Of a stretch of DNA of 53,265 nt, positions 21,361-33,538 are shown piece after piece. The notes beneath the pieces were generated by a model. That model had not been told where the DNA came from. It made no database searches and saw only the letters and a program-made list of their open reading frames with translations. The DNA lies in assembly GCA_902605365.1 (NCBI GenBank), contig CACLCM010000011.1, positions 1 to 53,265 of the forward strand. The letters are read 5' to 3'. This stretch comes from an uncultured Candidatus Poseidoniales archaeon (GTDB lineage Archaea > Thermoplasmatota > Poseidoniia > Poseidoniales > Poseidoniaceae). How positions within the stretch are numbered: position 1 is the stretch's first letter; every line of letters starts with the position of its first letter. Both the position numbers and the translations under genes were made by a program.

Positions 21361-21491
21361 GTAACCATTGGACGACTGAGGAATTAATTTTCTTTATCGC
21401 TAAAGTTTCAGGTTGATCGGGATTAAAGAACAGTCAGAATAAACTGAACTTCATAAGGTAGTAATGTGCGGATTTGACTAGAGGGGAGTAT

Positions 21492-22883
21492 ATGAAAGAT
21501 TTAGGTCACCCTAATATCGACCTGACGCGTTTTCTAAATGCCCCTGTTGTTCATGAAATAAATGGCCAGAAAGTCGATGCTGAGGAATTGATGAATAATA
21601 TCTCCATGTTGACTATGAAAATAGATTCAGATAATGTTGAGCATGTAAAGCACCTGACTACTGAAGGCCTTAACAAACAACAAAGATTAGAATTTATTAG
21701 AGATTTATCCAAAGCCTCAGAAACCGAAATTTTTGAGTTTTCAACATGCAATAGAGTCCTATATGTTGGCTTTGGTATTGATTCAGAAAAATTACAAGCC
21801 AGTATTTTACATTGTACTTCACTGAAATCCGTTCCTTTTGAGATTTATAGCGGGCTTGATGTTTGGAGACATTTGGTGAAAGTTTGTAGTGGCCTTGATT
21901 CTTTTATGATAGGTGAGTTACAAGTTATGGCTCAGTTTAGAAGTTCTGTAGCATGGCACAGGAAACACGATTTGGTTAGCGACATCAACAGTTCATTTTT
22001 TGATCACGTAATTTCAGCCAATCGTATGATTAGAAGAGAATTAGGATTTAATCAAACGACAGGGTCGATGATTAGTCTAGCAAGAACTGCCATTGAACAA
22101 CAGCTATCTGCAGAAAACCATTCGAATTCTGTGGTTCTTGGTTTCGGAGGAATGGGTAAGAAGGCCGCTGAAGTTCTGTTCTCACTAGGAGAAAAGGAAG
22201 TCACTGTAATTTGCAGAAATTATGAGAAGCATATTAATTCAGAAGAGAATCTTCCAGAAAATATAAAATTTATTTCATTCAATCAGTGGAAAGATTCCAA
22301 ACTCGACGCAAGCCTGGTGATCTCCACAATTCGAAACATAACACCAACCTTTGACATGGATAATCCAATGCCAACTAAATGTGAATCCACGATAATGGAT
22401 TTCTCTTGGCCGCCTTCCATCGACGAAAAAGCACTACATGCAAAGCAAAAATTATTCGGAATGAAGCACTGGATTCAAGCATCGCACAGTCTCGAAAAGG
22501 AGTGGGATTATTGCTCTGCTATCACCAAAAGCGAGGATTTAATCGAACAGATTGAGAAGAAGTACCTTTCAGCTTTAACCGATCGTAGTAATGCTAAGTT
22601 CCGTTCAATGATGTACACAACATTGGAAGAATTATCCAACAAATGGATTAATTCAACCGATTTGGAAGATACCAAAGTATCACAATTAGGGCCTTTCTCT
22701 AGAGAGATTGCCACTTGGATTTGCAATCAACAAGGGCCGTTCGGTCTTGGCGATTTAGATGACATGGTTCAATCAACCCCTCGCAAGATAAATCCAACTC
22801 TTCTTAAGCGAGTGTCTAGTGATGTAACCGAGACGATAATCCGAATTAACCAGCGGGCGAATCTCTCGGGGGCTAAACTTTGA
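21492..22883 (+). CDS. hemA: Glutamyl-tRNA reductase
   Basis: A 463-residue GluTR, first committed enzyme of C5 tetrapyrrole synthesis. EFSTCNRVLYVG holds the nucleophilic Cys that takes glutamate from tRNA-Glu; SGLDSFMIGELQVMAQFR and the Rossmann segment VVLGFGGMGKKAAEVL (NADPH) follow, with the C-terminal dimerisation helices. The N-terminus carries ~50 extra residues before the catalytic domain. ATG 21492 with GAGGGGAG at 21481-21488 is preferred over TTG 21474. It opens an operon whose genes overlap or lie within about 15 bases of each other down to hemY. Confidence 0.94.
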   Translation: MKDLGHPNIDLTRFLNAPVVHEINGQKVDAEELMNNISMLTMKIDSDNVEHVKHLTTEGLNKQQRLEFIRDLSKASETEIFEFSTCNRVLYVGFGIDSEKLQASILHCTSLKSVPFEIYSGLDVWRHLVKVCSGLDSFMIGELQVMAQFRSSVAWHRKHDLVSDINSSFFDHVISANRMIRRELGFNQTTGSMISLARTAIEQQLSAENHSNSVVLGFGGMGKKAAEVLFSLGEKEVTVICRNYEKHINSEENLPENIKFISFNQWKDSKLDASLVISTIRNITPTFDMDNPMPTKCESTIMDFSWPPSIDEKALHAKQKLFGMKHWIQASHSLEKEWDYCSAITKSEDLIEQIEKKYLSALTDRSNAKFRSMMYTTLEELSNKWINSTDLEDTKVSQLGPFSREIATWICNQQGPFGLGDLDDMVQSTPRKINPTLLKRVSSDVTETIIRINQRANLSGAKL

Positions 22884-24586
22884 CCACAATCAAAATTGGC
22901 ACTAGAACTTCTACATTAGCAATGTGGCAAGCCAATAAGGTTAGTCAATTGCTTAATAAAAATGGATTTGATACTGAAATAATTGGAATCTCATCCAAAG
23001 GTGACCAATCATTAAGTGGAGATTTAGCAAGTTCTGTTGGGCAATTCATCCATGCAATTGATGCCAAACTAATCGATGGAACAGTCGATATATCGGTGCA
23101 TTCGAGTAAGGATGTACCTGTGGACTTTAGTGATTCAATAGAATGCCTAGCCTTTCTAGAGAGAGGTAGTACGAATGACCTGTTGATTTTTCCAAAACGT
23201 GAAGATTTACCTTCACTTGCAGAGGTATTGGAATCATCGGGCTCAACTGATGTTGAGACTGCCCTCTCCTTTTTGCCCCACACAGGTATGGTCGGCACAG
23301 TTTCTGGCAGAAGACAATCCTTCTTGCTTAGCAATAGACCTGATGTGATACCTATTGCAGTTAGAGGTCAGATCGAAACTAGATTAAAGCGTCTATTCCA
23401 GAAAAGAGTAGACGCGATAATTCTTGCAGAAGTCGGGCTTCAAAGACTGAATAGTATAGATGCTTTAGATTCTTGGATGTTGGAATTTAGTGCGATAAGG
23501 CTCGATGATTTTCAGTGGCCAACTGCACCTGGCCAAGGTGCAATTTCGGTTCATTATTTATCATCACAATCGTCGGAGTTAATCCAATCCTTGAGAGAGG
23601 TTCTCAATCACAAAAAGACCGAAGATGATGTGATTGGTGAGAGAAAACTGCTGAGTAAAATCGGTGGGGGATGTCTTTATCCTGCTGGAATCAAAGTGAA
23701 TGGAAATAATGTGTCATTACAGATATCTCCAATGAATTGGCGTGAAACCTTTTGCCAAGGTAGAAGTTTTCCGACCAATGAATATCATGGAGAGTTATCA
23801 TCTGCCAATTTAGAACTTCCACAAACCCAACCCAGTCCAACTTTTTCTGTTGACAACGGGCCTAAATTAATTTCAACACTCAATTCAGATAGATTGGCAA
23901 ACATCCTTCAAAACGATGGAATAAACGTGCTAAATAAACCAGTGATTAGTTTAGTTCCTAAAGAAGAGAATTGGCCTAAAAACTTCATCGACGACAGTGT
24001 TTCGCGTTCTCAGTGGCCCTATCTTGTGTTAACATCTCCCTTCGCAGCAAAGTGTGCAATAAAAGTCGCACAAGAAAATGGCGATATCAACAGAATACAA
24101 TGGTTAGCAATCGGTGAAGGAACGGCTAGAGCATGTTTCAAGCAAGGTGTGACCGTATCGATTTGTGCTAAATCAAGGAATTCAAAAGAATTAGCAGATT
24201 ACATTGAAAACAATATTGATAAATCGACTAAATTGATGTTGCCTCGCTCAGATGTAGCCCCCGAATATTTGCTTAAACGATTAACAGAATCTGGATTCGA
24301 GGTAGAATATTGGGTTGGCTATGAGAATAAAACAAAGACTCTTGAATCATTCGATGTTAATCCAGATGATGTCCTTTTACTGTCATCTCCATCATCTGCC
24401 AGATCTTGGTTTGAGAACTCTTTACCCATACCTAAAAATATATTGTGCATGGGGAAATCTTCTCAAGAGGAGATTGAATCGATGGATTATTTCGCCGATT
24501 CAGAAGTTGAAATCCTAAAAGGACCAACAGCAGAATTCCTTTCGAAATGGTGGAAAAAAAGCAGGGGGGAAACAAATGAAGATTAG
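22880..24586 (+). CDS. hemCD: Porphobilinogen deaminase-uroporphyrinogen III synthase fusion (HemC-HemD)
   Basis: A 568-residue fusion. Residues ~1-310 are HemC: GTRTSTLAMWQANKV, HSSKDVP, AVRGQIETRLKRL and GGGCLYP with the dipyrromethane-attachment Cys265. Residues ~325-568 are HemD-like: NGPKLISTLNSDRLANIL, then WPYLVLTSPFAAKCAIKVA and VLLLSSPSSARSWF. Together they turn four porphobilinogen into uroporphyrinogen III without releasing hydroxymethylbilane. The TTG start at 22880 overlaps the hemA TGA, which points to translational coupling. HemC-HemD fusions are known in some bacteria; stand-alone genes are the rule. Confidence 0.92.
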   Translation: MTTIKIGTRTSTLAMWQANKVSQLLNKNGFDTEIIGISSKGDQSLSGDLASSVGQFIHAIDAKLIDGTVDISVHSSKDVPVDFSDSIECLAFLERGSTNDLLIFPKREDLPSLAEVLESSGSTDVETALSFLPHTGMVGTVSGRRQSFLLSNRPDVIPIAVRGQIETRLKRLFQKRVDAIILAEVGLQRLNSIDALDSWMLEFSAIRLDDFQWPTAPGQGAISVHYLSSQSSELIQSLREVLNHKKTEDDVIGERKLLSKIGGGCLYPAGIKVNGNNVSLQISPMNWRETFCQGRSFPTNEYHGELSSANLELPQTQPSPTFSVDNGPKLISTLNSDRLANILQNDGINVLNKPVISLVPKEENWPKNFIDDSVSRSQWPYLVLTSPFAAKCAIKVAQENGDINRIQWLAIGEGTARACFKQGVTVSICAKSRNSKELADYIENNIDKSTKLMLPRSDVAPEYLLKRLTESGFEVEYWVGYENKTKTLESFDVNPDDVLLLSSPSSARSWFENSLPIPKNILCMGKSSQEEIESMDYFADSEVEILKGPTAEFLSKWWKKSRGETNED

Positions 24587-25547
24587 ACCTCGAATAAATC
24601 GTTGGACTCAAGCCAGGAGAAACCTTGTGCTTGAATCATCCATCAACAGCTCATTGGTCCAGCCCCATTTTGTTGTTGATGGGCAAGGAGTAAACGACGA
24701 AATTATTTCTATGCCAGGTATATTTCAGCAGTCTGTAGATGTTTTGATAGAGACTATTTCCAAAGATGTAGAATTTGGAATAAACAATCACATGCTATTT
24801 CCTGTAATCGATTCATCACTCAAAGACCCGTATGCCTCTGCTGCTCATGTAGATGATATGCCTTTACAAAATGCGGTCAGATTGTTGAGAGAAAGGTTCG
24901 GAGACAGTATCGTAATATTGACCGATGTCTGTCTTTGTACCGCAACTGACCACGGTCACTGTGGAGTTATTCATAATGAGGTGATTGACAATGATCGAAC
25001 TATTCCTATATTGTCGAAAATTGCCTTGTCACACGCTAAAGCAGGTGCAGATTATGTCTCAGCATCGGATATGATGGATGGTAGAGTAAAATTGATTCGA
25101 GAAGAATTGGAGGCAAATGGATACTCCAATACTGGAATCCTATCATATTCTGTAAAGTATTCTTCATCTTTCTATGGCCCATTTAGAGAGGCAGCCTCTA
25201 GTTCACCATCATTTGGTGATAGGTCAAGCCATCAAATGGATATCAAATCGGGATATCCTGAAGCGATTCTTGAAGCGACCACAGACGTTCAAGAAGGAGC
25301 AGACATAATCATGATAAAACCAGCATTTACCTACCTAGATGTAGTCAGAGAAGTGTCTAAAGAAATTACTAGGCCAGTCGCTGTATACAATGTAAGTGGG
25401 GAATATTCAATGGTAATGGCTGCCACTACTGACGTGCAATCTCGCAGAAAAATGGTCAGCGAAATCTTTCATTCATTCAAACGAGCAGGTGCTGATGTAA
25501 TCGTGAGTTATCACACCCGCGAAGCAATGGAAAATAATTGGTTTTAG
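24576..25547 (+). CDS. hemB: Delta-aminolevulinic acid dehydratase (porphobilinogen synthase)
   Basis: A 323-residue HemB, zinc type: LTDVCLCTATDHGHCG supplies Cys119, Cys121 and Cys129. The Schiff-base lysines lie in YSVKYSSSFYGPFREA and MIKPAFTYLD. It condenses two 5-aminolevulinate to porphobilinogen. The ATG lies inside the end of hemCD (11-base overlap) and a GGGGGAAA-type ribosome-binding site precedes it. Full length for the family. Confidence 0.96.
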   Translation: MKIRPRINRWTQARRNLVLESSINSSLVQPHFVVDGQGVNDEIISMPGIFQQSVDVLIETISKDVEFGINNHMLFPVIDSSLKDPYASAAHVDDMPLQNAVRLLRERFGDSIVILTDVCLCTATDHGHCGVIHNEVIDNDRTIPILSKIALSHAKAGADYVSASDMMDGRVKLIREELEANGYSNTGILSYSVKYSSSFYGPFREAASSSPSFGDRSSHQMDIKSGYPEAILEATTDVQEGADIIMIKPAFTYLDVVREVSKEITRPVAVYNVSGEYSMVMAATTDVQSRRKMVSEIFHSFKRAGADVIVSYHTREAMENNWF

Positions 25548-25558
25548 GGAGGAATGTA

Positions 25559-26845
25559 ATGGATCGAAGTAATTCAAATAAACTTCATCTCGAAGCAGAA
25601 AACCATCTGGTTGGAGGTGTTAATTCACCAGTACGTGCCTTCAAATCAGTACACGGTAGCCCTGTTTATTTCCAAAAGGCATCTGGCGCTATAGTCACAG
25701 ATGTTGACGGGAATGAATTGGTTGATTTCATACAATCTTGGGGCCCACTAATTCACGGTCATGCAAATTCGCAAATCATAGATGCCGTAGCTTTGAAGAT
25801 GCAAAATGGTACTTCTTTTGGAGCGCCGCATATGGGCGAACTTGAACTTGCCAAGAGAGTAAAACAAAGATTTCAATTCATGGACAAAGTACGATTCGTA
25901 AGTTCGGGAACTGAGGCAGTAATGAGCACTGTTAGACTGGCTAGAGGGCATACTGGAAGAGACTTGATCATCAAATTCGAAGGATGTTATCATGGCCATG
26001 TCGATTCCTTGATGGTCAGCTCAGGAAGTGGGCTAGCAACCTTTGGAATTGCAAGCAGCCCAGGAATTCCAAAAGATACTGTCGCTACTACTTTGGTTGC
26101 TCCTCTTGACGATGAAGAAATTTTGGAATACCTATTCTCACAACATGGTAGTGAGATTGCTGCTGCAGTAATAGAGCCACTTCCTGCGAATAATGGATTA
26201 CTGATTCAGCGCAAGGGGTTCTTGTCGAAATTAAGAGATTTATGCACTGCTAATGGTGCATTATTGATTTTTGATGAAGTGATAAGTGGCTTTAGATTTG
26301 AGCAAGGAGGATATGGTGGCTATGTTGGAATAGAACCAGACATCACCGCTTTAGGAAAAGTAATCGGTGGAGGATTGCCTGTCGGTGCTTATGGAGCCAG
26401 AAGTGAGATTATGGATAAATTATCACCTATAGGTCCTGTCTATCAGGCTGGCACATTATCTGGAAATCCATTGGCTATGGCTGCTGGAATTGAAACTCTG
26501 GATATGCTTTCTGAAGAATCTTACCAATTATTAGAATCGCTGGGTTCAACCCTTGAAAGTGCGGTGAATAAGGTGCTTGAGAAGCATAATTTCCCAATGA
26601 GAATCGTTCGATTAGGCAGTTTATTTTGGTTCTCACCTGGTGATGGGAAACCACCTAACAGGGCTGACCAAATCCCTAGTAATGCTGGAGTAATGTTTGC
26701 AAAAATCCATCAAGGTTTACTCGAAAGAGGATACATGCTAGCACCCTCTGCTTACGAAATAGGTTTTATCTCTACGGCACATCAAGAGCATCATGTCCTA
26801 GGCATGGTCTCTGCACTAGATGACGTGCTAGAAAATTTGGAGTGA
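25559..26845 (+). CDS. hemL: Glutamate-1-semialdehyde 2,1-aminomutase
   Basis: A 428-residue PLP enzyme. VGGVNSPVRAFKSV opens it, FVSSGTEAVMSTVRLARG binds cofactor phosphate, LLIFDEVISGFRF is the cofactor Asp segment and ALGKVIGGGLPVGAYG holds the Schiff-base lysine. It isomerises the HemA product to 5-aminolevulinate. ATG 25559 is chosen over an upstream in-frame start because GGGAGG at 25548-25553 lies at good spacing. Next gene in the hem operon. Confidence 0.96.
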   Translation: MDRSNSNKLHLEAENHLVGGVNSPVRAFKSVHGSPVYFQKASGAIVTDVDGNELVDFIQSWGPLIHGHANSQIIDAVALKMQNGTSFGAPHMGELELAKRVKQRFQFMDKVRFVSSGTEAVMSTVRLARGHTGRDLIIKFEGCYHGHVDSLMVSSGSGLATFGIASSPGIPKDTVATTLVAPLDDEEILEYLFSQHGSEIAAAVIEPLPANNGLLIQRKGFLSKLRDLCTANGALLIFDEVISGFRFEQGGYGGYVGIEPDITALGKVIGGGLPVGAYGARSEIMDKLSPIGPVYQAGTLSGNPLAMAAGIETLDMLSEESYQLLESLGSTLESAVNKVLEKHNFPMRIVRLGSLFWFSPGDGKPPNRADQIPSNAGVMFAKIHQGLLERGYMLAPSAYEIGFISTAHQEHHVLGMVSALDDVLENLE

Positions 26846-26850
26846 GAAAA

Positions 26851-27882
26851 ATGAATGGCAAAGAGAGAATAGTTTCAGCACTTAATCTCAAGCCTGTTGA
26901 TAGAACTCCTGTCTGGTTTATGAGACAAGCGGGAAGACATCTCCCCGAATATCGAAAAATTGCTGCTGAGAATTCATTCTGGGAGCGATGCATGGATGCA
27001 GACCTATGCTCAGAAATCACTCTTCAGCCGATAGAACGTTACAAGACAATTGATGCTGCAATTATCTTTAGTGACATTCTAACTCCATTGCCTAGTTTAG
27101 GATATACAGTAGAGTATGGTGGCGGAATTAGAATCGACAAATTCGAACTTGAAGACATTGATGACTGGATTGACTTCTCTGCAAGAAAGCATGCTCCTTG
27201 GGCTGCGGATGGCCTCAAATCTCTTGGTGAGAAGTCTGATAATTCGATTGCACACTTAGGATTTGTAGGATCTCCATGGACCATTGCAATGTATCTTTTA
27301 TCGGGAGGAACTGGTGACAAAGATTTTCACAATGCTAGATCAAAGGTATTCTCTAATCCTGATATGGCGCAAGAACTGTTTTCAAAAATGGGTTATATCG
27401 TTGGTGATTTATTGGCCGACCAAGTAAATTATGGCGGCGCAGATGCTGTTCAAATTTTCGATACTTGGGCTGGTTTGCTTAACACAGAGAATTATCGCAA
27501 GTTCGCAATGCCTGCTACCGCTAAAGCGATCGAAGTATTTCGAGAGAAGTGTGAAAGAAAAGTACCTTTGATTCACTATGCCAAGGGTTCAGGACATCTT
27601 CATTCCTCGATTAGGGAACTTGATTTGGAAGCTATTTCTCTCGATTGGCGAGATGACTTAGCATTGAATCGTGAACAATTCGGTGACAAGTTAGCATTCC
27701 AAGGTAATCTCGACCCTTCACTATTGCATGGTTCTCCAGAAATGGCAAGTCTTGCTACTCGCAAAGTTCTCGATGCTGCTGGAAATTCTCCTGGTCACAT
27801 ATTCAACCTTGGACATGGATTCGCACCTTCAGCTAGAATTGATTGTGTCGAATCTGTTTTGCGTACTATTACTGGTGAATAA
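26851..27882 (+). CDS. hemE: Uroporphyrinogen decarboxylase
   Basis: A ~343-residue HemE. PVWFMRQAGRHLPEYRKI is the N-terminal signature with the substrate-binding Arg pair; IIFSDILTPLPSLG holds the catalytic Asp region; GFVGSPWTIAMYLLSGG, IHYAKGSGHLH and FNLGHGF with its His follow. It decarboxylates uroporphyrinogen III to coproporphyrinogen III. GTG 26842, overlapping the hemL stop, is an alternative start. hemF begins one base after its stop codon. Confidence 0.96.
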   Translation: MNGKERIVSALNLKPVDRTPVWFMRQAGRHLPEYRKIAAENSFWERCMDADLCSEITLQPIERYKTIDAAIIFSDILTPLPSLGYTVEYGGGIRIDKFELEDIDDWIDFSARKHAPWAADGLKSLGEKSDNSIAHLGFVGSPWTIAMYLLSGGTGDKDFHNARSKVFSNPDMAQELFSKMGYIVGDLLADQVNYGGADAVQIFDTWAGLLNTENYRKFAMPATAKAIEVFREKCERKVPLIHYAKGSGHLHSSIRELDLEAISLDWRDDLALNREQFGDKLAFQGNLDPSLLHGSPEMASLATRKVLDAAGNSPGHIFNLGHGFAPSARIDCVESVLRTITGE

Positions 27883-27883
27883 T

Positions 27884-28789
27884 ATGCGAGATAGAATGGC
27901 TGACATGGTCTACAGAGTCCAAGACATCATCTGTCAAAAATTAGCTGAATTCGACGATGTTGAGTACCGTGAAGACATTTGGGAAAGAGAAGAAGGCGGC
28001 GGTGGAAGAAGCCGTGTATTTAGTGATGGAAAAGTGTTTGAAAAAGCCGGTGTGAATGTGAGTGTAGTCTATGGTACACTTAGTCCACAAGCCGCAAAAA
28101 GCATGGGCGGAGGTCATGTATTAGGCGATGAAGACTTGGACTTCTATGCAACTGGCCTAAGTCTTGTTCTACATCCAAAAAATCCTATGGCTCCTACTGT
28201 TCATGCAAATTATCGCTACTTCGAGAGAGGAGATGGCACCAAGCCAGGAAGTTGGTGGTTTGGAGGTGGTGCTGATTTGACTCCAAGTTACTTATTTGAA
28301 GAAGATGCAATTCATTTTCATCAAGTACACAAAGATGTTTGTGACCGCCATGAAGTGGCCGACTTCCCTAAATTTAAGCAGTGGTGTGACGACTATTTTT
28401 ACATCAAACATCGCGGTGAAAGTCGAGGTCTTGGAGGCATATTTTTTGATAATATAAATCAAGCAAGTCAGGATGAATGCTTCGACTTTGTTGAGGATTG
28501 TGCTCTATCTTTCTTGAGTTCTTATATTCCAATATTAGAGAGAACAATGAATCTGGATTATACTCCCGAGCAAAAGGATTGGCAGCAAATTCGCAGAGGT
28601 AGATATGTTGAATTTAATTTAGTATATGACCGAGGTACGACATTTGGGCTAACTACCAATGGCAGAATAGAGAGCATCCTAATGTCACTACCTCTAACCT
28701 CACGGTGGGAATACTGCCATTCTCCACAGGAAGGAAGTCTAGAATCTGAACTTTTACAGGTTCTTAAAAACCCAAAGGATTGGGTATGA
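27884..28789 (+). CDS. hemF: Oxygen-dependent coproporphyrinogen III oxidase
   Basis: A 301-residue HemF, the aerobic enzyme, not the radical-SAM HemN. EREEGGGGRSRVFSDGKVFEKAGVN, LVLHPKNPMAPTVHANYRYF, WWFGGGADLTPSYLFEEDAIHFHQ, GESRGLGGIFFD and RRGRYVEFNLVYDRGTTFGL are the family's conserved blocks. It uses O2 to convert coproporphyrinogen III to protoporphyrinogen IX. ATG 27884 is one base after the hemE stop; the frame is open far upstream into hemE but similarity begins here. Its presence implies an oxygen-exposed habitat. Confidence 0.96.
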   Translation: MRDRMADMVYRVQDIICQKLAEFDDVEYREDIWEREEGGGGRSRVFSDGKVFEKAGVNVSVVYGTLSPQAAKSMGGGHVLGDEDLDFYATGLSLVLHPKNPMAPTVHANYRYFERGDGTKPGSWWFGGGADLTPSYLFEEDAIHFHQVHKDVCDRHEVADFPKFKQWCDDYFYIKHRGESRGLGGIFFDNINQASQDECFDFVEDCALSFLSSYIPILERTMNLDYTPEQKDWQQIRRGRYVEFNLVYDRGTTFGLTTNGRIESILMSLPLTSRWEYCHSPQEGSLESELLQVLKNPKDWV

Positions 28790-28804
28790 GTTCGAGCGAT
28801 TAGT

Positions 28805-30064
28805 ATGACTGAATTGCAGGATTGGATTCAACACGGAGCGGAAATGCGCCGTCCACTATTAGCCAATCCCAATTTAAGAGATGAACAAAAAATAGTAATC
28901 ATTGGAGGGGGACTTTCTGGTCTTTGTACAGCATTTAGACTAGGGCAAAAGTATCCAGATAAGAATTTGATTTTGGTTGAAAAATCAGACAGATTGGGCG
29001 GAGTGATTCAGTCTTGGAAAAAGAATGAATGGATTTGTGATTTGGCAGTAAATGCTTCAAGGCCGCACCCTGCAATGTGGAGACTCATAAACGATTTAGG
29101 ATTGGCAGAATTATGGAAACCATCAACTGACAAAGTCAATTCTAGGTGGGTCTGGCTCAACAATTCCAAACATAAGATCTCACCACTCTCATTATTCAAG
29201 ATCGGGCCATTGAAACTAAGAAAAGCCATTAGAAATTCACGTAAGGGGGTAAAATCTGTTTCACAATTAATTCCTCATCACAAAATATCTGATGCTCTTA
29301 CTCTTGGAATCGTGAATGATACATCGGACAATGTTGATGCAGATTTCTTGTTTCCATCGCTAACAAAATTTGGGCCAATTCAGCCAATCAGCAATAGAAA
29401 ATTATCAAAACTTATCGCTCCAACATATCCTATATTCCAGCCTAAAAGTCGTTCGATTGCATCCCTGAAAGGTGGAATGGAAGTATTGATTGATGCGCTG
29501 AAAGAGCGTATTGAAGCGATGAGCAATGTTGAGGTTTTGCTCAAACAAGATATCGAAAGCCCTCAATTAGCAAGTGAAAGGTTTGATACTCCTCTCGCCT
29601 CAATAATATGGACTGCTCCTGGTTTAATTGAAAATTATGAACAGACCTCGCTATCGATATTTGCGGTTGGGTTTGAACAAAAGCATGTGCAACAAATACC
29701 CCTTGGCTACGGACTTTTGATTCCGGATAAATCGATTCCAATAAGCGGTATTTTACATGAAAGTGACATACATTATTCTCAAAGAGCACCTGAAGGACAC
29801 AGGCTGTTTCGACTAATGGTTCCTCATGAACGCTGGGACCAAGATGATGCGACGGTGAAAAATTCATTACCGGAATTTTTTGGAAAAAATAAACCGGTAT
29901 TGTTTGAAAATATTGGAACCAGAATTATACCACGCTTCAAACCAGGTCATATGGATAAAATATCCAAATTGAGTTATGATTTCACCTATCTAGGTTGGTC
30001 TGTAAGTGGCGTATCGATTACCCATGTGGTCGATGAAGTTGAGCGTCTGGCTGAACTTCTCTAA
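28805..30064 (+). CDS. hemY: Protoporphyrinogen oxidase (FAD, HemY type)
   Basis: A 419-residue flavoprotein amine-oxidase-fold enzyme. The dinucleotide motif VIIGGGLSGLCTAFRLG and the following VEKSDRLGGVIQSW are the HemY/PPOX N-terminus; the C-terminal YLGWSVSGVSITHVVDEVE resembles the family's closing FAD motif. It is rather divergent and slightly short for PPOX (usually ~450-470). Position directly after hemF and the missing step in the pathway make protoporphyrinogen IX oxidation the clear role. Last gene of the operon; its stop overlaps that of the convergent hemH. Confidence 0.88.
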   Translation: MTELQDWIQHGAEMRRPLLANPNLRDEQKIVIIGGGLSGLCTAFRLGQKYPDKNLILVEKSDRLGGVIQSWKKNEWICDLAVNASRPHPAMWRLINDLGLAELWKPSTDKVNSRWVWLNNSKHKISPLSLFKIGPLKLRKAIRNSRKGVKSVSQLIPHHKISDALTLGIVNDTSDNVDADFLFPSLTKFGPIQPISNRKLSKLIAPTYPIFQPKSRSIASLKGGMEVLIDALKERIEAMSNVEVLLKQDIESPQLASERFDTPLASIIWTAPGLIENYEQTSLSIFAVGFEQKHVQQIPLGYGLLIPDKSIPISGILHESDIHYSQRAPEGHRLFRLMVPHERWDQDDATVKNSLPEFFGKNKPVLFENIGTRIIPRFKPGHMDKISKLSYDFTYLGWSVSGVSITHVVDEVERLAELL

Positions 30065-31182
30065 TCGTCGCTTTTCATTTTTTGCGGTTTCATTTCGTCG
30101 TAATCAGCCGCTGTAAGTTGATATTCAATGTCTTCTTTGTCTTGTGCAGACCCTTCGGCTTGCGTGAACGTATATTTTGCAAAATCTTTGCACCATTGTT
30201 GATTGGAATTGAGGCATTCTACTGGATGAACATTTCCTCCCCATTCCTTTGCTTCATTGACCAGTTCATGCCCGAGTTCATCGGTTGTTTCGAGACAATC
30301 GACCACGAAACTTGGAGAATAAATTACAATCTCTTTATTGCCATCTTTAACTAAATCTTCAACTACGCGCTCCGTGTATGGCGTGATCCATTCTTCAGAG
30401 CCAAATCGACTTTGGAAAGTCATCACAGCATCGCTCGCATCCAAATGTTCTAGCCTGTCAACAATGAGTCGAAACGTTTCGTAGCAGTGGCGATAGTAAT
30501 CGTCACCCTTTTCGACAATTCTTCGCTTTTGCATTCCGTGAAATGATATTACTAACTTGTCCGGTTCAACGCCGCTGTCTTTGATTTGCTTGAGCTTAGC
30601 GTCAACTTGACGTACCGAATTATCAATGAAGGCATGCGTTCGATGAAAGTTTGTAATTACTTCAAACGTCGGGATTTTGACACGCTTTGCGAGTTCACCT
30701 CCAAGCGCGTCGATTCCAGACGCAATGGTGCTTTCCGAGTATTGTGGAAACATTGGAATTACCAGCAATTTTGTTGCTCCCGTTCCGTTCGCTAAATCCT
30801 GCTCCCAACTGTCATAAACTTCGTGAACGTAAGGGGGTGAGAGTAGGAAAGCATGGTTCACTTCCACGTATCCAGACGGGTCGAGTGTTGTCAATTCATT
30901 ACGAACCTGCTCTGTGAAATCTGCCGTATTGGTGATAAGAGGAAAACTTTCTCCGTCCCAAATACGTGCATAAAGTTGGGCTGATTTTTTTGGTCGAAAC
31001 GGTAATACGAAGCAATTCAGAATTATTTTCCACACCCACGGGTTGATGTCAACGACGCGAGGGTCGCCAAGAAAACTTCGCAGGTACTTGCGAACTTCCT
31101 TGGTCGTGGGGTTTTTTGGCGAACCGAGTTGTACAAACACAACTTTGGTTTTCCTTTGAGGTGGGGTGTAATTCGATGCCAT
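30061..31182 (-). CDS. hemH: Ferrochelatase
   Basis: A 373-residue ferrochelatase. VVFVQLGSPKNPTTKEVRKYLRSFLGDPRVV is the N-terminal signature; FPQYSESTIASG, ISFHGMQKRRIVEKGDDYYRHC (metal-binding His) and the SPSFVVDCLETTDELG block follow. It inserts Fe2+ into protoporphyrin IX. It is transcribed toward the hem operon from its own promoter. Its arginine codons are mostly CGN, while hemA-hemY mostly use AGA, so it may have a different history from the operon. A charged C-terminal tail of about 35 residues follows the core. Confidence 0.95.
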   Translation of the reverse strand: MASNYTPPQRKTKVVFVQLGSPKNPTTKEVRKYLRSFLGDPRVVDINPWVWKIILNCFVLPFRPKKSAQLYARIWDGESFPLITNTADFTEQVRNELTTLDPSGYVEVNHAFLLSPPYVHEVYDSWEQDLANGTGATKLLVIPMFPQYSESTIASGIDALGGELAKRVKIPTFEVITNFHRTHAFIDNSVRQVDAKLKQIKDSGVEPDKLVISFHGMQKRRIVEKGDDYYRHCYETFRLIVDRLEHLDASDAVMTFQSRFGSEEWITPYTERVVEDLVKDGNKEIVIYSPSFVVDCLETTDELGHELVNEAKEWGGNVHPVECLNSNQQWCKDFAKYTFTQAEGSAQDKEDIEYQLTAADYDEMKPQKMKSDD

Positions 31183-31333: not shown

Positions 31334-31507
31334 TTAATTCCCACAGCCGCAACCTGAAATTTCACAGGAAGGCCCTGCTGTTTCTATTGCCGGAGTTTCT
31401 ATTACTGGAGATTTAACGGTCTTTTCGAGCTTCGCTTTTTCCAGTCTTTTCTTGAGACCTGAGGGGATTTTGACCTTGCGTTGAGTTTGAACTGTACGTC
31501 GACTCAT
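31334..31507 (-). CDS. Small basic protein with Cys-rich C-terminus
   Basis: A 57-residue protein: a basic N-terminal half (QTQRKVKIPSGLKKRLEKAKLEK) followed by a linker and the ending CEISGCGCGN, three closely spaced Cys that could bind a metal ion or Fe-S cluster. ATG 31507 is preceded by AAGG at ribosome-binding distance. A longer in-frame start at 31579 would overlap the small plus-strand gene at 31528 and is less likely. Family not recognised. It sits between ferrochelatase and the Fea1-like lipoprotein, in an iron-related neighbourhood. Confidence 0.55.
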   Translation of the reverse strand: MSRRTVQTQRKVKIPSGLKKRLEKAKLEKTVKSPVIETPAIETAGPSCEISGCGCGN

Positions 31508-31689: not shown

Positions 31690-31713
31690 GGCACCCCCCC
31701 GAAGGGGAGTGCC
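31690..31713. terminator. GC-rich stem-loop downstream of the Fea1-like gene
   Basis: GGCAC-C-CCCC and GGGG-A-GTGCC pair around a CGAA loop (9 bp with one mismatch). It lies about 60 bases after the minus-strand lipoprotein stop at 31771. No T-tract follows; it may stabilise the 3' end of a strongly expressed mRNA. Confidence 0.4.
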
Positions 31714-31770: not shown

Positions 31771-32937
31771 TCACTCGTAGGTACCGATGTCATCAGACGT
31801 GATACCATAGTGTGCCCAAACGTGCTCTAAGTGAGCTGTGACATCGTAAGATGTTCCTAGTTGGGATGCGTCTTGCAGGTCCAGAATCTCGTTGATTCTG
31901 TTTGCACCGTAGTGTCCTTCAAAGGTTTCTCCTTCTGCGCATGCAGTTTCGTCGGAGTTTCCGACGTAGGTGACGTTATCGTCAGCAGCGATACATGCGT
32001 TGGTGTGAGCAGCCGAGTATGCTTCGATTGCCTTCCAGAATGCGTATCCTTCAACTTGGTACTTTGCAGCTGAGTCGTTACTATCCATCTTCGAGGTGTA
32101 CTTGAGTACAGCCTGAGAGTAAGTGATAACTACGTTCTTGACAACAGCATTTGCTGCTGCAGTGTATCCTTCAGAGTCTTCTGCTTGGAGTGCTGCAAGT
32201 CCGTCAATCATTGCGTTTTGGGAAGCGGTTAGAGCGTTTGAAACACCATCTGTTTCTGTGCCAAAGTCAGCAGCACGCTTCTTCATAACGTATGCTGGGG
32301 AACAGCTCCAGTCTTCATCCGGTCCGTGGAAGAATGCCCATCCTTCGTCCCAGTTGTGTGGGGCTCCAGAGTCATTGTCAACGTTACCAGAATCAGCCTT
32401 TGCGATTGCTGAGTTCAACTCGTGAATGGTGTAAGCAACCATTCCCATGTTAACGGTCAACTTTGCGATACCTTGGTATCGAACTGTGTCGGATGTACCA
32501 GCGAAATCACCAGTACCGTCCATTGCTGCAGTGATGTGCGCATCGACTGATCCAGCAGCGTCATAGTATGCATCGTAGCCGTGATTCTTACCTTCAGCAG
32601 ATGCGAAACCTGCAAGTGTGCGGAAGGAGCCATCGCTCTTTTCTGCATTCTTACCGTTCATGTAGATGTCCTTTGCAGTTGCAAAGTCGTAGCCGCCGTC
32701 AGAGCTGGCTGCGGCCTTGATGTCGCAGAGGTCCTTCATTAGAGAACGGTGGTTGTCAACATCTGACGCATAGGTGTAGCCGCCATCTGAAGCGTCCATC
32801 CCTACAACAGGGTCGGTTGGGTCCATTGTCTCATCTTCTTCGTCTTTATCATCATCATCCGACGACAAGCATCCTGCTAATCCAGAAACTGCCATCAGTG
32901 CAATCAATAATAATCCTTTCAATTTTGTGTACTTCAT
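31771..32937 (-). CDS. Fea1-like (low-iron-inducible) lipoprotein
   Basis: A 388-residue lipoprotein. The signal peptide ends in a lipobox, VSGLAGC (Cys23), followed by a Ser/Asp/Glu-rich linker. The mature domain has the motifs TAKDIYMNGKNA, RTLAGFASAEG, DAHITAAMDGTGDF, YTIHELNSAI, HNWDEGWAFFHG and VEGYAFWKAIE. As I recall the algal Fea1/H43 family (periplasmic proteins induced by iron starvation), this layout matches it; I could not run a search. Codons are strongly biased, as in highly expressed genes. Two DtxR/IdeR-like palindromes lie in the promoter and a ferrochelatase gene is nearby, both fitting iron uptake or iron binding at the cell surface. Confidence 0.6.
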   Translation of the reverse strand: MKYTKLKGLLLIALMAVSGLAGCLSSDDDDKDEEDETMDPTDPVVGMDASDGGYTYASDVDNHRSLMKDLCDIKAAASSDGGYDFATAKDIYMNGKNAEKSDGSFRTLAGFASAEGKNHGYDAYYDAAGSVDAHITAAMDGTGDFAGTSDTVRYQGIAKLTVNMGMVAYTIHELNSAIAKADSGNVDNDSGAPHNWDEGWAFFHGPDEDWSCSPAYVMKKRAADFGTETDGVSNALTASQNAMIDGLAALQAEDSEGYTAAANAVVKNVVITYSQAVLKYTSKMDSNDSAAKYQVEGYAFWKAIEAYSAAHTNACIAADDNVTYVGNSDETACAEGETFEGHYGANRINEILDLQDASQLGTSYDVTAHLEHVWAHYGITSDDIGTYE

Positions 32938-32950
32938 AGTAATACCTTCG

Positions 32951-32966
32951 TTTAGGGGGCCCTAAA
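32951..32966. promoter_or_regulatory. DtxR/IdeR-like palindrome 1 (start-proximal)
   Basis: TTTAGGG and CCCTAAA are exact inverted copies around GG, 13 bases upstream of the lipoprotein ATG. The arms share the TTAGG/CCTAA half-sites of DtxR/IdeR-type iron-dependent repressors. It would overlap or follow the transcription start. Confidence 0.55.
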
Positions 32967-32984
32967 TACCCTTTATTAATTTTG

Positions 32985-32998
32985 TTAGGTTGCCCTAA
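32985..32998. promoter_or_regulatory. DtxR/IdeR-like palindrome 2 (upstream)
   Basis: TTAGG and CCTAA flank TTGC. Together with the palindrome at 32951-32966 it brackets an AT-rich stretch (AAAATTAATAAA on the minus strand, 32973-32984) that looks like the TATA element, an arrangement suited to iron-dependent repression. Confidence 0.5.
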
Positions 32999-33103
32999 AA
33001 GTTACTTATTAATGTTGTTACAGTAAAATACAAATTTCTGAGACCCATATCTTTCACACTATCTCAAGCACACACCTAAATGAGTTAACCATGACGGATT
33101 TAC

Positions 33104-33538
33104 ATGGGCAGAGATTGGTTTATGCTATTTCTGATTCTTGCAGTTTCATTTTCAACTCCTGGTTGTTTTGATGAGAAAGAAGAATTCTACTATTCTGTAG
33201 ACGACTCCGAAGATGGAACTAACTCAGATTCGACCTCAGATGTGCTGTTTTCAATCACTCTTGATGACCAAGGAGGTATGGACATGGACTTTTCAGATCT
33301 AGTTGTAATAATTGAGAGAGATTCAGGCTCTCATAACTGTGCTACAACCGGAACGACGGGGAATTGTTCTGTCGTTCAACCATTAGATTCTGATGATTCA
33401 ATTTGGGAGATTGGTGAAACACTGAATATTACTGAAAATGGTGTAGACATCTGTTCTCAGCATTGTATTCTAGCATTCATTGTATCTGGTCCAGAAGATG
33501 CTAAAATTGTCGGACCAACTATACTCAACACTACTTGA
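33104..33538 (+). CDS. Small lipoprotein with ENGVDICxxxC domain
   Basis: A 144-residue lipoprotein: signal peptide followed by lipobox STPGC (Cys21), an acidic Ser/Thr/Asp linker (about 22-48) and a ~90-residue beta-rich domain with two Cys pairs. The end (WEIGETLNITENGVDICSQHC) matches the C-terminus of the exported protein at the window start. It is transcribed divergently from the Fea1-like gene, so the shared 166-base region could serve both. Function unknown; a surface-anchored binding domain is the most that can be said. Confidence 0.65.
   Translation: MGRDWFMLFLILAVSFSTPGCFDEKEEFYYSVDDSEDGTNSDSTSDVLFSITLDDQGGMDMDFSDLVVIIERDSGSHNCATTGTTGNCSVVQPLDSDDSIWEIGETLNITENGVDICSQHCILAFIVSGPEDAKIVGPTILNTT

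Follow-up and report, generated by a model that had tools for sequence, protein, structure and literature searches.

A predicted iron-responsive Fea1-family surface lipoprotein under IdeR-type operators in Poseidoniales archaea

In Chlamydomonas deprived of iron, FEA1 dominates the periplasmic protein, and its mechanism is unproven even in algae (PMC8098128). Its Ostreococcus counterpart, Ot-Fea1, was found iron-loaded (PMC4855317), and the diatom phytotransferrin ISIP2a, a distant relative through the Fea1 domain, is a surface iron concentrator (PMC7676907, PMC4855317). Pfam labels this domain (PF07692) a 'low iron-inducible periplasmic protein'. For IdeR/DtxR regulators, Marcos-Torres et al. 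proposed in 2021 that the site of a single dimer is the 14-bp TTAGGNNNNCCTAA (PMC8464063). No published function was found for the NCBI family of FEA1-related lipoproteins, NF038033. Sunlit, iron-poor ocean water is rich in Marine Group II archaea, which are uncultured, and to our knowledge little has been recorded of how they acquire iron. Here we describe a Fea1-family gene, fea1, in a 53,265-nt stretch of Poseidoniales DNA (the window, meaning the whole stretch analysed). Taken jointly, the evidence leads us to give a probability of about three in four to the reading that its product is a lipoprotein that binds iron at the cell surface and concentrates it for ABC importers, and that iron starvation lifts repression of the gene.

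The initial annotation had likened the encoded protein to the algal Fea1/H43 family, and this was borne out by both profiles. The 388-aa product scored 104.1 bits against PF07692 (E 1.1e-29; gathering cut-off 25) and 317 bits against NF038033 (FEA1_rel_lipo, 'FEA1-related lipoprotein'; equivalog cut-off 250). Reading of the sequence revealed a signal peptide, an LAGC lipobox and an acidic linker, and the AGC of the lipobox is kept in nearly all Poseidoniales relatives; the protein is predicted to be exported and lipid-anchored outside the cell. The AlphaFold2 model is mainly helical (pLDDT 87, pTM 0.84). No solved relative was found in the PDB by sequence, and a Foldseek search with this good model gave no fold relative (best E 1.7). 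Among its matches, an iron-regulated protein of the imelysin type (TM 0.21) was rejected as noise. Because there is no solved relative by sequence or by fold, the metal site was not located. Eight invariant residues (H172, E173, H194, D197, E198, Y273, Y280 and E296) are candidate ligands.

Highly expressed codon use had also been ascribed to fea1, a claim that was weakly borne out. The gene ranked third among 37 ORFs in the similarity of its codons to those of DnaK, and its third-position GC was the highest (0.48), but its ENC of 52.4 is ordinary, so that usage is mildly DnaK-like and the bias is not strong. DnaK served as the reference because a search for ribosomal L2 failed to find it in this incomplete genome (1.45 Mb, about 60% complete), whose best matches are to Poseidoniales (Marine Group II). 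Downstream of fea1, a GC-rich hairpin may mark the end of the transcript. Divergent from fea1 lies a small lipoprotein gene (33104-33538, plus strand) without a family match in Pfam or NCBIfam.

Table 1. Coordinates of fea1, its promoter elements and the transferrin-like genes (window positions unless a locus is given)
Feature	Position	Strand	Description and basis
fea1	31771..32937	-	388-aa Fea1-family lipoprotein; Pfam PF07692, NCBIfam NF038033, AlphaFold2 model
Lipobox codons	32869..32880	-	L-A-G-C (Cys23), predicted lipid anchor; translation
Operator 1, TTAGGGGGCCCTAA	32952..32965	.	Perfect TTAGGN4CCTAA, 15-28 bp upstream of ATG
AT-rich TATA-like stretch between operators	32966..32984	-	Sequence
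Operator 2, TTAGGTTGCCCTAA	32985..32998	.	Perfect TTAGGN4CCTAA, 48-61 bp upstream of ATG
GC-rich hairpin 3' of fea1	31690..31713	-	Sequence reading; no T run
Transferrin-like genes	L122:2058-4001, L120:2078-4001, L113:274-2397, L110:922-1995, L121:982-2031, L046:6883-8982, L006:3735-4859; own genome L134:5409-6371		

The two palindromes reported earlier upstream of fea1 were both found to be perfect and to flank the TATA-like stretch. Their spacing is 33 bp, and the intervening sequence reads TTAATAAA on the coding strand. Orthologous fea1 promoters carry TTATAT(A) at the position of the AT-rich stretch, and the position of operator 1 is kept (-28, for example, in L004, L005 and L011). The motif is identical to the IdeR/DtxR single-dimer consensus TTAGGNNNNCCTAA (PMC8464063). 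Three perfect copies occur in the window, and when up to one mismatch was allowed we counted four sites against 1.24 expected from shuffles. The third perfect copy (21501-21514) overlaps the start region of an ORF (21474-22883) upstream of a run of heme genes, and it may be there by chance. Across the fea1-bearing genome nine sites were counted against seven for a reversed control motif; counts were likewise near the control in eight relatives, and genome-wide enrichment was dropped as support. With no genome-wide excess of the motif, it is the conserved placement, rather than frequency, that gives it significance.

Such placement was surveyed in the 200 bp upstream of fea1 at 69 related loci, all taken from GTDB genomes. 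The initial annotation had staked its reading on the palindromes recurring at orthologues, and they do. By manual tally, at least one perfect palindrome precedes 42 of 50 Poseidoniales fea1 genes, with two at 24 of them, and perfect copies are also found upstream of two Acidimicrobiales fea1 genes (L055, L056). Imperfect palindromes alone were seen at loci L008, L013, L020, L021, L026, L027 and L030. A stricter automatic count placed the palindrome at 23 of 26 fea1 promoters and at 5 of 283 other promoters of the same loci (Fisher p 8e-27, a value not to be taken literally because the sequences are related). Where operators are paired, their spacing was 33-34 bp in nine of 12 promoters, mostly around TTATAT.

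A look for the palindrome at further promoters had been suggested, and we found it ahead of genes for flavodoxin, transferrin-like proteins and a long Fea1 paralogue. Eight relatives hold 22 perfect sites, 17 of which are at promoters of fea1 (six), transferrin-like lipoproteins (seven), flavodoxin (three) or a pyridine-nucleotide oxidoreductase (one), with five elsewhere. In the fea1-bearing genome itself, two of the nine sites are those at the window fea1, one precedes the long fea1 copy and one is in a divergent promoter region with flavodoxin/quinone-reductase-like genes; at the other five no iron gene is evident. As to the DtxR/IdeR regulator that had been anticipated, 93 of 96 relatives have a DtxR-family gene (L116:2800-3459, for example), and both DtxR domains were matched; none was found in the genome at hand, which is only about 60% complete. 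DtxR-family proteins include manganese sensors, and NCBIfam does not distinguish the regulator as DtxR or MntR, the best score going to the MntR model. A regulon that responds to manganese or another metal, or a regulator of some other family acting at the palindrome, nevertheless seems improbable to us: that flavodoxin and transferrin-like genes share the motif suggests iron, the half-site agrees with the one published for IdeR, and the regulator, at about 220 aa in the relatives, fits IdeR/DtxR rather than the short MntR.

The transferrin-like members of this predicted regulon are lipoproteins with one lobe or two, mostly under a TTAGGN4CCTAA operator; they are archaeal homologues of transferrin (PF00405, and PhnD-like PF12974). 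Of 58 Poseidoniaceae genomes, 49 gave a Pfam Transferrin match above cut-off, as did none of 14 controls, and a profile of the archaeal proteins matched melanotransferrin (1.9e-33). Conserved among them are D103, Y131, Y225, H295 and an SCHT motif, which align with transferrin Asp63, Tyr95, Tyr188, His249 and Thr120 (human numbering). The carbonate-helping arginine of transferrin is replaced by Lys or Gly. The structure model of a transferrin-like protein was too poor for use (pLDDT 56). In the literature searched we found no paper on an archaeal transferrin. That the predicted regulon includes homologues of transferrin in which the four iron ligands are all conserved may be a bigger finding than Fea1 itself. 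If they bind Fe(III) with carbonate, iron uptake in the Marine Group II archaea could be sensitive to ocean acidification, like that of diatoms.

We found that fea1 is repeatedly linked to importer genes. In most Poseidoniaceae loci the order is fea1, a surface protein of about 780 aa (c2), Peripla_BP_2, FecCD permease, ABC ATPase. Loci of the Thalassarchaeaceae type have, after fea1, a binding protein that is transferrin-like, then an ATPase and a permease of the BPD type. The Chloroflexi relative L063 has SBP_bac_6 and FecCD genes after its fea1. The short fea1 copy of the window stands alone, without an importer operon. Its genome holds a longer second copy at C1:150255, where contig C1 ends within the gene. 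Contig C44 starts with a Fea1 C-terminus, followed by the surface protein and a FepB-like gene; contig C36 starts with FecCD, followed by FecE, a HugZ/CREG-like protein, a PhnC-like ATPase and a PhnE-like permease, with sorbosone-dehydrogenase-like and transferrin-like genes convergent to them. If these contigs are joined as C1-C44-C36, a join that we infer, the long paralogue appears to head an importer operon in this genome. The c2 protein (L015:6387-8747; L133:278-2626 in the same genome as the window) is secreted, carries CarboxypepD_reg domains and is usually encoded between fea1 and the FepB-like gene. Long Fea1 paralogues (L135:1732-3478, L112:212-2068) have C-terminal Cys-rich repeats of about 25-30 aa, of the type CYNMVSHxxxx...C, an array that is absent from the window copy and that seems to break assemblies.

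The repeated operon linkage to two kinds of importer bears on another account, in which Fea1 would be a structural surface coat protein with no role in metal transfer. Under stress the Fea1 proteins studied so far reach very high abundance, the Fea1 sequence reveals no identifiable metal site, and the acidic low-complexity linkers would suit a coat; with the importer linkage and the invariant H/D/E/Y cluster speaking against it, we hold this account to have little chance of being right.

For the iron-trap reading that we prefer, we propose the following mechanism, reasoning from algal FEA1 and Ot-Fea1 and from IdeR biology as to the bound metal, the action of the repressor at the palindromes and the hand-over to importers. 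In iron-replete cells, an Fe2+-loaded repressor of the DtxR/IdeR type would sit on both palindromes and block the TATA box between them. As iron falls, the repressor would be released, and fea1 would be transcribed together with flavodoxin, transferrin-like and iron-importer genes. Lipid-anchored Fea1 outside the Poseidoniaceae (Marine Group II) cell would then bind or concentrate ferric iron at the membrane. From there the iron could be handed to the FepB/FecCD/FecE importer that most relatives encode in their fea1 operon. Alternatively, it could go to a transferrin-like binding protein that works with subunits of the PhnC/PhnE type. Under iron shortage, Poseidoniales archaea thus probably coat themselves with an iron trap. 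A bolder version is tentative and, in our view, falls somewhat short of even odds: Marine Group II archaea would have a eukaryote-like iron trap, in which Fea1 and genuine Fe(III) binders of the transferrin type are displayed together on the surface, controlled by a single IdeR-type switch, and supply ABC importers with no need for endocytosis. The predicted binders would be the one- and two-lobed proteins in which the Asp/Tyr/Tyr/His ligands and the SCHT anion helix are kept. If this is true, these archaea, together with marine Actinobacteria and Chloroflexi, are prokaryotic homes of two iron-binding folds familiar chiefly from algae and animals.

The trapped iron might instead be organically bound. 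On this account Fea1 would capture heme or a ferric siderophore rather than inorganic Fe(III) and present the ligand to the FepB-like protein, and the HugZ/CREG-like protein would open heme in the cytoplasm. HugZ belongs to a heme-oxygenase family. The HugZ/CREG-like protein (CREG beta-barrel, DUF2470, PNPOx; L134:1664-2542, L113:10011-10847) is encoded beside FecE of the fea1-importer island, and a DUF2470/PNPOx HugZ-related protein follows the ATPase gene both in the genome at hand and in G007. The binding protein of the operon resembles ferrichrome-binding and heme-binding (IsdE) proteins, yet all of these NCBIfam scores fell far below cut-off. Moreover, the co-regulated transferrin-like proteins retain Fe(III) ligands, and the studied algal relatives, Fea1 and ISIP2a, act on iron itself (PMC4855317, PMC7676907). 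We therefore regard capture of organic iron, and with it the cytoplasmic opening of heme, as unlikely, though the likeliest of the alternatives to a trap for inorganic iron. A CREG1 homologue was co-localised with diatom phytotransferrin (PMC7972479).

It had also been proposed that the cargo of Fea1 feeds heme synthesis through the neighbouring ferrochelatase gene, hemH (30061-31182; PF00762, E 2.6e-79), which is adjacent to fea1 on the same strand. About 590 bp and a 57-aa ORF separate the two genes, hemH has no operator, and even in the 86%-identical orthologues (L003, L011) the neighbours of fea1 are other than hemH. Because hemH is neither a conserved neighbour nor under an operator, we consider its adjacency incidental, and channelling of Fea1 cargo to heme synthesis is very improbable. 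Any involvement of heme would, if at all, run in the opposite direction, via the HugZ/CREG-like protein beside the FecE gene. hemH ends a run of heme genes (24576-31182: hemB, hemL, hemE, hemF-like, protoporphyrinogen-oxidase-like, hemH) that indicates a protoporphyrin-type route. The product of the intervening ORF (31334-31507, minus strand) has the C-terminus CEISGCGCGN and is possibly a small metal-binding or modified peptide.

The nearest named orthologues of the window protein are Poseidoniaceae proteins, 86% identical. Within Poseidoniales fea1 is patchy, with 36 of 146 genomes exceeding the NF038033 cut-off, and outside the order one sub-threshold match was found among 117 genomes sampled across the phylum. 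In a first-look Fea1 tree, built without algal Fea1/ISIP2a sequences, the exact place of the window protein was weakly supported (80/77). Fea1-type iron acquisition had been put forward as undescribed for planktonic archaea. We found no paper on Fea1 in archaea in the literature searched, which largely excludes subscription papers, but NCBI already has a curated family model, and a Fea1-related lipoprotein family is therefore known in databases. What appears undescribed in that literature is the setting of the known Fea1 domain: archaeal, lipid-anchored, behind an IdeR box and tied to an ABC operon. Two uses follow from the locus. A conserved operator with named target genes offers a direct iron-stress marker for metatranscriptomes, and an algal family of unproven mechanism is now tied to importer operons of defined content in prokaryotes, which makes its role testable.

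Compared with described systems, the archaeal protein shares with Chlamydomonas FEA1/H43 and Ostreococcus Ot-Fea1 the PF07692 domain, secretion and a link to iron starvation, which in the archaea is the predicted operator. It differs in being a single-domain lipoprotein, whereas the algal proteins are soluble or TM-anchored, and in its partners, a predicted DtxR/IdeR-type operator and ABC importers in place of the FOX1/FTR1 or ZIP transporters of algae. ISIP2a works with endocytosis in diatoms, a route that these archaea lack; for them the step after capture is likely to be an ABC importer. With the NF038033 lipoproteins of Acidimicrobiia and others the archaeal proteins have in common a score above the family cut-off, and two Acidimicrobiales copies share the operator, but the archaeal proteins are 37-47% identical to those members and form a clade of their own with 100/100 support. 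Finally, the operator that fea1 shares with Actinobacterial IdeR/DtxR regulons, down to the 14-bp consensus (PMC8464063), is arranged differently: at fea1 an archaeal TATA box lies between two separate sites of 14 bp, spaced by about 33 bp, whereas Actinobacteria have one 19-bp two-dimer site.
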